Shown here in pieces: positions 1 to 11,685 of a stretch of 16,607 bases of DNA. The notes beneath the pieces were generated by a model, which was not told where the DNA came from, made no database searches, and worked only from the letters and a program-made list of their open reading frames with translations. The DNA lies in contig JAHJRR010000083.1 of assembly GCA_018830685.1 (NCBI GenBank), forward strand, positions 1 to 16,607, in the 5' to 3' direction. The translations under genes were made by a program, and so were the position numbers. This DNA is from Nanobdellota archaeon. Its GTDB lineage: Archaea; Nanobdellota; Nanobdellia; Pacearchaeales; GW2011-AR1. The number at the start of each line of letters is the position of its first letter. Position 1 is the first letter of the stretch.

Positions 1-91
1 ACTTAACAGCCACACTCTTTCTCTTCCCAGCCCTCTTCTTACTCTTAGAAAAACTCTTCTTCCCAACCTCTTTTTTATTTTCTTTCACCAT
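1..91 (-). CDS. Partial lysine-rich protein, 5' end only
   Basis: The reading frame opens at an ATG (minus strand, base 91) and runs off the window edge after about 30 codons. The visible N-terminus, beginning MVKENKKEVGKK, is about half Lys/Arg with Ser and has no hydrophobic stretch. It therefore resembles a disordered basic tail, as on nucleic-acid-binding or ribosome-associated proteins. No domain is visible, so no function is assigned. It lies 14 bases beyond the 13-base tRNA-Ser-like repeat and has no good TATA box 25 bases upstream. If the Fic cassette is an insertion, this gene once sat directly behind tRNA-Ser. Confidence 0.55.
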   Translation of the reverse strand, partial: MVKENKKEVGKKSFSKSKKRAGKRKSVAVK

Positions 92-104
92 TTTATTAAT
101 TAAA

Positions 105-117
105 ACGCCCCAACCAG
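105..117 (-). repeat. 13-base copy of tRNA-Ser 3' end (candidate attachment site)
   Basis: The 13 bases ACGCCCCAACCAG are identical, and in the same orientation, to 1093-1105, which is the 3' end of the tRNA-Ser gene (end of T stem, acceptor strand, discriminator). A GC-rich 13-mer repeating by chance within 1 kb of AT-rich DNA is very unlikely. The copy lies downstream of the tRNA 3' end, where tRNA-targeting integrases leave their distal attachment site. On the minus strand it is followed by a T-run (TTTTAATTAA), as expected behind a natural tRNA end, whereas the intact tRNA is not followed by one. Confidence 0.55.
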
Positions 118-147
118 CCCTAAAAGTTTTTGTTTGAGTCCCTAGTT

Positions 148-1035
148 TTATCTTAAATATTTCTTATATTCTCCCAAATATCTTCTAAAAAACCATTGGA
201 TGAAGATGTTGTCATCTTTGTTCACCTGGGCTCTTTCCAGTGCATTGTAGTAACTAGATCTTTTTGTGTATTGAATGTCTAACAGGGGGAAGTTAAATTT
301 TTTCAGAACAAAGTTCATCATTAATCTTGATATTCTTCCGTTCTCATCTGAGAAAGGGTGAATAGTTACAAACTTAAGGTGAGCTAATGCCGCTAGTTCC
401 ACAGGGTGAATACTCTTCTTTTCTTTGTTATACCATTCAAAAAATTCTCTCAGCAGGGTGTCAACTTCTAGATGTATTGGCGGTTTGAATTTCGATTGAG
501 ATATTGCAACGTCATGTGTTCTCGTCTTTCCGGCTATATCGTTGGCAGTATCTTTCATCAGTTCCAAATGCCATCTCAAAATAATTTGCATATTCAAATC
601 TCCCCCATAGTCTAGCATATCAAAAAATACTTTTTTGTGTGCTTCAGCTTCCTTAACATCTCTTAAAGGTCGGGAGTTGGGGGTTATTCCCTCATCAAGA
701 AGTTTGGCTGTATCTTTTAAGGAAAGCGTGCTTCCTTCTATCCTCTGTGTGTTGTATGTAAATTTAACTGCGAAATTGTTCTTAGCTTTTTCTTTTGCAG
801 AGATGGGCATTGCCTTATATTCTGCGTTGAATTTCCTTTTTACCTTGTCTAAGTTCCCTAAGAATTTTCCTTTGTAGAATTCCCTCATAAAACTCTTCTT
901 CTTTTCCTCAATGTTTTTTGGGATGGCTTCACCTAAATAAAACTGCTTTTTCTTTACAGATTTCCCTTCTCTGTAGCTGTGCACAAGATAGTAATAATTT
1001 TTCTTTCCTCTTCTGATTTCCTTAATTTCTACCAT
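148..1035 (-). CDS. Fic/DOC-family protein (probable AMP transferase)
   Basis: Fic enzymes usually transfer AMP from ATP to a hydroxyl side chain of a target protein. The 295-residue protein has the Fic core motif HPFSDENGRISR at residues 226-237, with catalytic His226, acidic Asp230 and the NGR anion hole. It differs from the common HPFx(D/E)GNGRxxR by Glu for Gly at 231. Residues 96-101, TQRIEG, match the (S/T)xxxE(G/N) inhibitory helix placed N-terminal to the core (class II), so the enzyme is probably self-inhibited through Glu100. Residues 1-90 are basic and charged, with no recognised domain. The TATA element at 1054-1065 lies about 25 bases before the ATG, which supports this start and a leaderless transcript. 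The target is unknown; no partner antitoxin is adjacent. Confidence 0.93.
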   Translation of the reverse strand: MVEIKEIRRGKKNYYYLVHSYREGKSVKKKQFYLGEAIPKNIEEKKKSFMREFYKGKFLGNLDKVKRKFNAEYKAMPISAKEKAKNNFAVKFTYNTQRIEGSTLSLKDTAKLLDEGITPNSRPLRDVKEAEAHKKVFFDMLDYGGDLNMQIILRWHLELMKDTANDIAGKTRTHDVAISQSKFKPPIHLEVDTLLREFFEWYNKEKKSIHPVELAALAHLKFVTIHPFSDENGRISRLMMNFVLKKFNFPLLDIQYTKRSSYYNALERAQVNKDDNIFIQWFFRRYLGEYKKYLR

Positions 1036-1053
1036 GAGAATTATTATACCTAC

Positions 1054-1065
1054 TTATTTATAAAG
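1054..1065 (-). promoter_or_regulatory. TATA box of the Fic gene
   Basis: On the minus strand CTTTATAAATAA is centred about 25 bases before the Fic ATG, the spacing of an archaeal TATA box when transcription starts at the start codon. It lies between Fic and tRNA-Ser, so Fic is transcribed separately. Confidence 0.65.
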
Positions 1066-1093
1066 TTATTGTTTTCTTTAAAATGTAGATACA

Positions 1094-1247
1094 CGCCCCA
1101 ACCAGGACTCGAACCTGGATGCCCTTGCGGGCCGAGATCTTCGGTCTTTTATATCTGCGAAGCAGACATCTCTAGGAGATGTTACCGTAGAAGAACCTAG
1201 GTTCTTCCCGTTTCCAATCTCGTGCAATACCCTTATGCGATTGGGGC
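1094..1247 (-). tRNA. tRNA-Ser(GGA) with 73-base intron
   Basis: The acceptor stem is GCCCCAA/TTGGGGC with discriminator G. The D arm is GCA...TGC with GGG in the loop. The anticodon stem CGAGA/TCTCG encloses a TTGGAAA loop, giving anticodon GGA (1215-1213). The variable arm is long, GCCC-GCAA-GGGC, and the T arm is CCAGG-TTCGAGT-CCTGG. The long variable arm (class II), discriminator G and GGA anticodon agree on serine. An intron (1139-1211) splits the gene after position 37. The mature tRNA is 81 nt with no encoded CCA. The cognate synthetase, serS, is at 8315-9601 in this window. Confidence 0.95.
1139..1211 (-). other. tRNA-Ser intron with three hairpins
   Basis: The 73-base intron lies between positions 37 and 38. 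The splice region folds as a 4-bp central helix (TTGG with CCGA, one G-U pair) with 3-base bulges cut as AA|A and AG|A, matching the archaeal bulge-helix-bulge rule on the exon side. The inner helix next to the first bulge does not pair directly, so this looks like a relaxed bulge-helix-loop. The intron contains three consecutive perfect hairpins: 1190-1207 (an 18-base palindrome around CCTAGG), 1166-1182 (7-bp stem, 3-base loop) and 1154-1166 (TCTGC-GAA-GCAGA). Confidence 0.85.
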
Positions 1248-11149: not shown

Positions 11150-11356
11150 ATGGAAAATACAACAATTGTTATAAGAAAGGATTTGAAAGAGAAAATATCT
11201 ACATTTGGAGATAAGGGTGAATCCTACTCGGATATAATTGAAAGGATTTATAACGCTGCCGTTAAAACTCAGATTAGGGAATTGTTAATGAATGAAGAGA
11301 ATACTATTTCTGCCAAGGAAGCACTAGAAAAAGCTAAGAAGCGATGGCAAAAGTAA
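11150..11356 (+). CDS. Probable antitoxin of RelE-type module
   Basis: 68 residues. The N-terminal strand-helix pattern (TTIVIRKDLKEKISTFGDKGESYSDIIERIYN) is that of small archaeal antitoxins of the ribbon-helix-helix/VapB-like or DUF7557 type. These dimerise, bind the operator and use a C-terminal tail to wrap the toxin. The Lys/Ala-rich tail (KEALEKAKKRW) fits that role. The gene overlaps the toxin start by 13 bases, typical of translational coupling that keeps antitoxin in excess. The exact antitoxin family cannot be fixed by eye. Confidence 0.75.
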   Translation: MENTTIVIRKDLKEKISTFGDKGESYSDIIERIYNAAVKTQIRELLMNEENTISAKEALEKAKKRWQK

Positions 11357-11685
11357 TCATAAATAATAACCTTGAAAAAGCAATTAACAAAAAATTTAAA
11401 GGAGAGTCTGTTGAGATTTTTGAATTGATTTATTCTTTGGAGGAAAATCCAAAAAAAGGAAAAGTTGTTGGTCAAATCGGAGGGGTAGTCATAAAAGAAT
11501 TGAAGTATGGAAAATTCAGATTCTATTTTGTTGCTGACGGTTATAAGATAAAATTTCTGGATATAACCGACCTTCATGATCTGCTTATCCGATTTGTAAG
11601 AATGTCTGACAAAAAAACCCAGCAAAAGATAATAGATGAGGTTAAATCTATTTTGAAGAAGTTTGGCGAAGAAGGATTTGATTAA
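11344..11685 (+). CDS. RelE/ParE-superfamily toxin
   Basis: 113 residues. The central block GGVVIKELKYGKFRFYFV (46-63) followed by IKFLDITDLHD is the beta-sheet core of archaeal RelE-like toxins, with basic residues Lys51, Lys54 and Arg59 placed for RNA binding. RelE toxins cut mRNA in the ribosomal A site. The C-terminal helix (MSDKKTQQKIIDEVKSILKKFG) is long and basic. The start is the second gene of the operon, overlapping the antitoxin. The alternative is a ParE-like gyrase inhibitor; the fold is shared and cannot be separated here. Confidence 0.8.
   Translation: MAKVIINNNLEKAINKKFKGESVEIFELIYSLEENPKKGKVVGQIGGVVIKELKYGKFRFYFVADGYKIKFLDITDLHDLLIRFVRMSDKKTQQKIIDEVKSILKKFGEEGFD

Follow-up and report, generated by a model that had tools for sequence, protein, structure and literature searches.

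Near one end of a contig from a Nanobdellota archaeon (NCBI GenBank assembly GCA_018830685.1, contig JAHJRR010000083.1), a Fic gene lies between a transfer RNA (tRNA) gene, tRNA-Ser(GGA), and a second copy of the 3' end of that tRNA. The stretch analyzed here, hereafter the window, is the complete contig of 16,607 nucleotides (C75) from a genome (G000) that totals 694 kb. We propose that this Fic unit is a non-autonomous, single-gene integrated cassette of ~1 kb, which lacks an integrase and was inserted by a recombinase acting in trans, a reading that we consider probable. Three observations carry it: the anatomy of the locus, the recurrence of the same arrangement at other tRNAs and at protein-gene 3' ends, and a sister cassette whose empty site is found within the genus.

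A Fic gene lies between direct copies of a tRNA-Ser 3' end

The features of the locus, all on the reverse strand, are as follows.
1094..1247, reverse strand: tRNA-Ser(GGA) with a 73-nt intron, the integration target (Rfam RF00005, 36.6 bits; ARAGORN with introns, Ser(gga) i(38,73))
1093..1105, reverse strand: attL-like core, the final 12 nt of the tRNA plus 1 base (exact 13-bp direct repeat)
1036..1092, reverse strand: cassette left end with the promoter region (read from the sequence)
148..1035, reverse strand: Fic/DOC protein of 295 aa (Pfam PF02661, E 6.8e-19)
105..117, reverse strand: attR-like core, the distal 13-bp copy of the tRNA-Ser 3' end (exact direct repeat)
1..91, reverse strand: start of the flanking lysine-rich gene, beyond the cassette (L004:51-665)

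The preliminary description of this DNA, made from the sequence alone, had noted that the 13-base end of tRNA-Ser is repeated directly downstream, and this is exactly the case: the 13-mer ACGCCCCAACCAG occurs as two identical direct copies separated by 988 bp, start to start. Across the whole genome, the single extra match outside the window was found at C21:25-37, inside a 141-bp identity between positions 1 to 141 of contig C21 and positions 1 to 141 of the window, both of which are contig ends. Since this match belongs to the contig overlap, the window pair are the sole copies of ACGCCCCAACCAG in the genome, and the 13-mer is not scattered away from its tRNA, a prospect that the preliminary description had raised. 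The same pattern read backwards, used as a control, gave no match in the genome. When 2 mismatches were allowed, CTGGTTGGGGCG matched the window twice versus 0.24 times expected, and both real matches were exact; 5 of 200 shuffles likewise gave two matches. The break between C75 and C21 at the distal repeat was considered as a hint of an empty site and rejected, because the exact 141-bp overlap places the branch at base 142 or beyond base 1 rather than at the edge of the repeat, which makes it uninformative on this point.

The tRNA-Ser gene was overlooked by ARAGORN under default settings but was called once introns were allowed, and it was also detected by Rfam. Fic is codirectional with the tRNA, its start codon standing ~57 to 58 bp past the tRNA end. 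As had been claimed, Fic is the only sizeable gene between the repeats: the other open reading frames (ORFs) of the interval, of 80 aa and 73 aa (the latter partly outside), are on the opposite strand and overlap Fic or the tRNA, and neither the ORF list nor Pfam revealed an integrase gene between the repeats. The 975-bp interior between the cores carries Fic alone, with no phage-satellite packaging or helper gene among its ORFs. The lysine-rich gene reported next to the distal repeat is present, but position 91 is its start, and the rest of its 204-aa ORF runs on into C21.

Related Fic genes recur behind tRNAs and between direct repeats

We surveyed 130 Fic loci in 88 related genomes, 128 of them from the order of the window and 2 from its class. 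A first search yielded 83 rows, of which 70 were placed (the weakest 13 were unused) and 49 were kept with matches of at least 800 bp; from a second search, 81 of 94 new rows were taken and the other 13 were not included. The loci come from related, non-independent genomes, and all counts below are given without tree correction.

A tRNA was found within 150 bp of Fic in 17 of the 130 loci, and in 16 of these it was upstream on the same strand; the remaining one was downstream on the opposite strand, and the other two placements did not occur. Within 300 bp, the numbers were 20 upstream on the same strand, 2 upstream on the opposite strand, 2 downstream on the same strand, and 1 downstream on the opposite strand. 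As a baseline within 150 bp, 33 of 1,113 genes (at least 100 aa, from the complete genome G007 and the first 660 kb of G045) had a same-strand tRNA upstream, versus 54 for the three other placements together. The 16 same-strand tRNAs represent nine anticodons, for Ser, Glu, Gly, Leu, Tyr, and Asp. Fic genes of the window type (68 to 100% identity) stand 57 bp behind tRNA-Ser(gga) in G000, 57 bp behind tRNA-Glu(ctc) in G089, and 58 bp behind tRNA-Tyr(gta) in G078, as measured from ARAGORN tRNA ends. We then aligned 13 close relatives (78 pairs), anchored on the CTAC of the left arm of an inverted repeat that precedes Fic. Identity was 0.59 for the 5 bases immediately 5' of this operator arm, 0.24 to 0.33 for the 55 bases upstream of those, and 0.51 to 0.68 past the arm (the value of 0.97 at the arm itself is a product of the CTAC anchoring). 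Similarity therefore sets in with the operator or just ahead of it; several of the 13 relatives have a tRNA-like 3' end directly upstream of this operator.

Strong direct repeats flanked Fic in 28 of the 130 loci when 1.5 kb on each side was compared, versus 1 of 640 mismatched pairs. A closer test for exact repeats, pairing 115 bp upstream with 150 bp downstream, gave 17 of 123 loci versus 1 of 976 mismatched pairs; it covered 123 of the 130 loci, and the window was left out since its flank is 3 bases too short. Both copies are close to Fic (about 300 bp or less) in 14 of the 28 loci, and for 7 of those 14, at unrelated targets, the left copy stops 57 to 72 bp short of the start codon. The repeat matches the 3' end of a tRNA next to Fic in G000, G009:C61, G052, and G138:C22 and that of a protein gene in G138:C71, G077:C13, and G013:C74. 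As an exception, the repeat in G194 resembles the 5' end of a gene, with its second copy 797 bp beyond Fic.

This recurring left boundary bears on the main rival explanation, in which the tRNA 3' end received a virus or plasmid with its own integrase, later reduced to Fic and two attachment sites. The accessible text of one thaumarchaeal survey (PMC6563490) reports elements with an integrase at tRNA 3' ends, bigger Fic units with extra ORFs exist in G008, G029, and G107, and both the other short inserts behind tRNAs in the own genome and the few recombinase matches near Fic loci (see below) would suit such a history. However, the compact form recurs, and the same left boundary at unrelated targets makes independent deletions unlikely. 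We therefore regard a relic of a larger element as improbable, although it is the strongest competitor of the cassette reading.

Some Fic contigs end close to the gene, but this excess was weak (3, 4, and 5 of 22 in the first three downstream 150-bp bins; 2, 1, and 2 of 13 upstream) and was not used. One contig with a 75% identical Fic (L342, end of G138:C82) terminates in telomere-like CCCCTAA repeats. No conclusion was drawn from 80 Fic loci on viral contigs, for which the analysis consisted of a tblastn with the genus recombinases.

Some flanking repeats are copies of protein-gene 3' ends

At the three protein-gene sites, the repeats derive from a tRNA-synt_1b (Trp/Tyr synthetase) gene in G138:C71, with a 27-bp repeat; from a 54-aa zinc-ribbon gene in G077:C13, which has only weak Pfam matches to LIM and DUF4428 and which we take to encode ribosomal protein L40e; and from an arginine- and glycine-rich gene without a Pfam match in G013:C74. 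Both copies in G077 encode CKGCQGKSFRPLKKK followed by a stop codon, with 5 synonymous and no amino acid differences between them. The G013 copies show 2 synonymous differences and then one extra codon. These synonymous-only differences imply that both copies were probably once under coding selection, the downstream copy having once been a working gene end. Recombination between a carried and a resident gene end would fit these sequences better than a duplication made at insertion.

The alternative is transposition with target-site duplication, in which a casposase or Cas1-like enzyme supplied in trans makes staggered cuts at gene 3' ends. Its appeal is that thaumarchaeal casposons target EF-2 genes and duplicate the target site, as far as the accessible text of PMC6563490 describes them. 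The repeats here, at 11 to 36 bp, also have a casposon-like length, and the window repeat is too short to tell duplication from recombination. However, the synonymous-only differences at two protein genes point to divergence before insertion, and the two ends of the window cassette do not form an inverted repeat. We give this alternative very little weight.

An empty site for a sister cassette is found within the genus

In G009, a genome of the window's genus, the order is tRNA-Gly(gcc), Fic, a 16-bp copy of the tRNA end, and a gene for a 607-aa protein. This 607-aa gene was matched in all 11 genus genomes, and tRNA-Gly(gcc) stands directly upstream of it in 5 of the 11, counting G009 with Fic in between. 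In the four others, the spacing between tRNA-Gly and the 607-aa gene is free of Fic and amounts to 48 bp in G008, 72 bp in G007, 227 bp in G001, and 211 bp in G006, the last of which has a Fic gene further upstream, behind tRNA-Ser. An opposite-strand tRNA-Val is upstream of the 607-aa gene in G004, G005, and G010, and no tRNA was found upstream of it within the available sequence of G003, G002, and G000. Removal of the 1,013 bp between the 16-bp cores of G009 left a 148-bp sequence that aligned end to end with G008 and G007, with scores of 176 and 147, respectively, versus 126 and 90 for the cassette end plus flank. On these alignments, a sister cassette in the window's own genus has its empty site at tRNA-Gly in G008 and G007.

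The preliminary description had asked whether Fic is fixed at the tRNA-Ser locus in all relatives, and it is not: among six genus genomes with tRNA-Ser(GGA), the next gene is Fic in two, G000 and G006, which carry different subfamilies, and is not Fic in G001, G004, G005, and G007. Two further sites offered little for comparison, as the gene downstream of the G138 trpS-like site was found in only 1 of 8 genomes (itself), so that no empty-site comparison was possible, and the gene downstream of the G003 tRNA-Glu site was found in 3 of 11 genomes, itself included, the others being distant.

A simpler origin would be chance or local rearrangement, with a tRNA fragment duplicated beside a resident Fic gene. 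A lone 13-bp repeat could arise by such a local duplication, and copies of tRNA 3' ends do exist without Fic. Against this stand the frequency of flanking repeats relative to controls (28 of 130 versus 1 of 640), the 16-to-1 orientation bias of the tRNAs, and the empty site of the sister cassette; we attach next to no probability to it.

The Fic protein may read an operator in its own promoter

An AlphaFold2 model of the window Fic (pLDDT 82.8) showed an N-terminal three-stranded sheet (residues 3 to 9, 12 to 23, and 26 to 35) followed by a long helix and then the helices of the Fic part; the sheet and long helix form a domain of about residues 1 to 75. The nearest solved structure was FICD (PDB 4u0u), which shares with the window protein the Fic fold and an N-terminal inhibitory TxxxEG motif. 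Such a motif is the mark of class II Fic proteins, its general form being [S/T]xxxE[G/N], and it reads TQRIEG in the window. By this motif, the window Fic is a self-inhibited class II type, so the cassette would need no separate antitoxin. The canonical active-site motif of Fic proteins is HPFx[D/E]GN[G/K]R. The window sequence, HPFSDENGR, departs from it: E at residue 231 is found solely in the window, and the column holds G in 56 of 57 aligned sequences. Because E replaces the G of its relatives, the activity of the window Fic is uncertain, and catalysis may be altered. The protein differs from FICD in having DENGR for DGNGR and also in its own sheet-helix N terminus, which is tied to a promoter palindrome.

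In the window, this palindrome is a weak, imperfect inverted repeat composed of TACCTAC at 1047 to 1053 and GTAGATA at 1085 to 1091, with 6 of 7 positions paired, and TTTATAAA lies at 1057 to 1064 within the cassette left end. Of 129 loci, 89 had an inverted repeat scoring at least 10 within 80 bp upstream of the Fic start, versus 2 of 129 shuffled sequences. Among the 75 rows listed, from which the window is absent, the sequence of the inverted repeat tracks the N-terminal type of Fic: MRIIKRKKG goes with TACCATTACA, MVYTEIKEKNG with TACGTCTACA, and MVYHEIR with ATGGG[C/T]ACA. This correspondence suggests Fic autoregulation, in which the N-terminal domain is probably a repressor of its own gene that acts by binding the inverted repeat around the TATA box. 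The N-terminal domain folded alone without an alignment had no match among solved structures at E of 0.001 or less, so the argument for DNA binding is one of covariation. Sequence likeness further suggests that the operator-reading module is common to several toxin-like systems. Some loci (G018, G171, G101:C7, and G111) have a second palindrome 3' of Fic. At L371:2705-3507, we noted a nucleotidyltransferase (HepT partner) with an N-terminal stretch resembling that of the cassette Fics.

Other tRNA genes of the lineage carry downstream copies of their 3' ends

The preliminary description had proposed a search for other tRNA ends followed by a similar cassette. Such ends do occur, since, for 6 of the 29 tRNAs of the own genome, 12 bp or more of the 3' end recur within 1.5 kb downstream, but only one of the six inserts contains Fic; the other five are about 60 to 460 bp long. 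For the same 29 tRNAs, there was no upstream copy and no copy of the reversed string. In the two genomes in which copies within 5 kb were counted, G007 (1 of 40 tRNAs) and G045 (2 of 37), all were also downstream. From the copies in the own genome, it follows that insertion behind tRNAs is, as judged from these repeats, a wider habit of the lineage, and the small inserts may be cassettes or their remains.

The five further tRNAs of the own genome (L119, L121, L123, L127, and L131) have downstream copies of 12 to 30 bp of their 3' ends. In G045, the 3' ends of tRNA-Ser(gct) and tRNA-Ser(gga) recur over 12 to 14 bp at distances of 2.9 and 4.4 kb downstream; the last gene of each interval encodes one of two similar proteins, of 253 and 273 aa. 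A dispersed repeat, GGGGTGACTTGTTAGG (at most 1 mismatch), was counted 18 times in each of G000 and G002, once in each of G001 and G006, and never in the 7 other genus genomes; copies lie within a tRNA intron (L137) and just behind tRNA genes (for example, L121 and L127).

Candidate recombinases

Ordinary homologous recombination would need longer cores than the 11 to 16 bp seen at tRNAs, which makes a site-specific recombinase likely. The search for a tyrosine integrase that the preliminary description had suggested returned a single match in the own genome, a 280-aa protein on C71, but one with an Xer-like look. PF00589 scored above the cutoff in 5 of the 11 genus genomes and at E of 0.001 or less in 6. 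Searched by tblastn, the genus recombinases had matches in the fetched flanks of 5 of the 130 Fic loci, flanks with a median of about 2.5 kb per side, from which distant recombinases could escape. In G009:C13 (L151), a tyrosine recombinase was matched ~0.7 kb past tRNA-Asp(gtc), in the orientation of the tRNA. G009 also carries the tRNA-Gly Fic cassette, and this recombinase could be a helper.

Stacked loci and evidence that weighs against a simple insertion

Several observations weigh against the cassette reading or limit the counts given above. For the window's own locus, no relative offers an empty site for comparison, because the lysine-rich gene was well matched only in G000 and G002 among the 11 genus genomes, both of them occupied (G010 has a weak, partial match). 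In G002, the tRNA upstream is tRNA-Ser(gct), yet Fic and the lysine-rich gene adjoin as they do in the window. Among the 17 close-in repeats, at least 4 are operator copies and not gene ends, and a few of the 28 loci owe their repeats to coding or simple sequence (G171 and G163). Where a same-strand tRNA precedes Fic by no more than 300 bp (20 genes), an exact distal copy of at least 11 bp was found in only 4; in 3 (G023, G102, and G166) the copy lies between the tRNA and Fic, and 13 have no distal copy or a degenerate one only. A separate scan of 17 named archaeal Fic loci found no tRNA in the 600 bp upstream of any of them. No mobilizing recombinase was identified in the genus genomes or the Fic flanks, the single match in the own genome being the Xer-like one, and no circular form of the cassette was seen.

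The G002 locus is instructive in this respect. Its Fic is 78% identical to that of the window, and the two share the junction GGCGTTTTAATTAATAARATGGTGAA to the lysine-rich gene, being alike from GGCGTTTTAATTAATAA onward. Between the tRNA and Fic, G002 holds two ORFs and a copy of a tRNA-Ser end that is identical over 22 bp to the window tRNA and over 16 bp to its own. The same Fic/lysine-rich junction behind a different tRNA implies that rearrangement or boundary decay has also occurred; the locus looks like stacked cassettes with decayed boundaries, and simple insertion does not suffice to explain everything. Stacking is likewise suggested by the gene order in G004, where two small ORFs without a Pfam match, presumably a DUF4258/DUF2283-like pair, lie between tRNA-Ala and Fic, and in G150, where an antisense Fic is followed by a nucleotidyltransferase with a Fic-type N-terminal domain and its HepT-like partner and then by a second Fic.

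The central idea of the preliminary description, a minimal tRNA-inserted Fic cassette, draws good support from relatives, through nine anticodons, orientation, repeats, and the G009 empty site; the recombinase acting in trans was not found.

Outside the survey, 4 of 63 named bacterial Fic loci had a same-strand tRNA within 600 bp upstream. At two of these four (L214 and L232), Fic stands between a tRNA (Ala and Thr, respectively) and a 64- to 68-nt direct copy of the 3' part of the tRNA and is the sole sizeable ORF in 1.2 to 1.6 kb; tandem tRNA genes are possible there. Elsewhere in the window, a (TA)n run at 1330 to 1360 separates tRNA-Ser from a 569-aa protein that weakly matches M64 peptidase, and at 11150 to 11685 a 68-aa VapB/DUF7557-like ORF overlaps a 113-aa ORF, likely forming a toxin-antitoxin pair.

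Discussion

We propose that the left end of the cassette would be the Fic promoter/operator, abutting the tRNA-Ser 3' end, and the right end the 13-bp copy of that 3' end. A small circle carrying the target 3' end beside Fic would enter the cell, and one site-specific crossover at the target end would rebuild the tRNA and leave the displaced old end beyond Fic. The recombinase would act in trans, being probably of the tyrosine type and supplied by a visiting element or by the host. Once in place, the N-terminal domain of Fic would read the inverted repeat at the promoter and repress Fic. That the window cassette is currently mobile, and that it has the status of a satellite, we infer.

According to the accessible text of the thaumarchaeal survey (PMC6563490), the median attachment site is 17 bp long and the shortest 8 bp. 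Of 68 sites, tRNA genes account for 39 and protein-gene 3' ends for 14; the smallest of the cryptic elements is 2.6 kb long and encodes four proteins, integrase included. Like this cassette, those elements use the 3' ends of tRNA genes (intron-bearing ones too) and of protein genes and are bounded by short direct repeats, and in one case the target end is rebuilt with a new stop codon. They encode an integrase, whereas the window cassette is ~1 kb long, with one gene and no integrase. The attachment anatomy is therefore known, and the integrase-less, ~1-kb form is the new part.

Integron cassettes and CALIN arrays (PMC11389934) are likewise small, served by an integrase in trans, and stacked in arrays, as appears to be the case here in G002, G004, and G150. 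Unlike theirs, the site here is a tRNA or gene 3' end. A further parallel is offered by pdif modules, which are delimited by dif-like 28-bp sites in inverse orientation. In Acinetobacter, these modules are also small, some carry toxin-antitoxin genes, and the host Xer acts in trans, according to the accessible parts of PMC6449649 and PMC13141974. They sit on bacterial plasmids, unlike the window cassette. Casposons are likewise archaeal and prefer gene 3' ends, but the available descriptions (PMC4046053; PMC6563490) give them multiple genes, Cas1 with PolB, terminal inverted repeats, and a true target-site duplication. The casposon genes and the terminal inverted repeats are absent at the window, whose 975-bp interior holds Fic only and whose ends are not inverted copies. 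Many Fic genes are located on genomic islands (PMC4454073, as far as accessible). We found no literature description of single-gene Fic cassettes at tRNA 3' ends, in a search that covered subscription journals thinly and did not cover preprints.

A broader and more tentative possibility, to which we lean less than even, is that self-contained Fic and toxin-antitoxin genes, including HepT/nucleotidyltransferase genes, form a class of integrase-less, one-operon mobile cassettes in DPANN archaea and possibly in bacteria, with the 3' ends of tRNA and housekeeping genes as landing pads, stacking, and a recombinase in trans. The HepT/nucleotidyltransferase pairs would then carry the same N-terminal operator-reading domain, and the class would work with the economy of integrons, the gene end itself serving as the attachment site.

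Since an integrase is the usual mark by which integrated elements are recognized, a one-gene cassette without one is easily overlooked. Here the attachment sites and a minimal 1-kb substrate are defined, as is an empty site, which makes the movement of integrase-less islands directly testable. If the cassette reading is true, such cassettes could explain some of the patchy distribution of Fic and other toxin-like genes among tiny symbiotic archaea.

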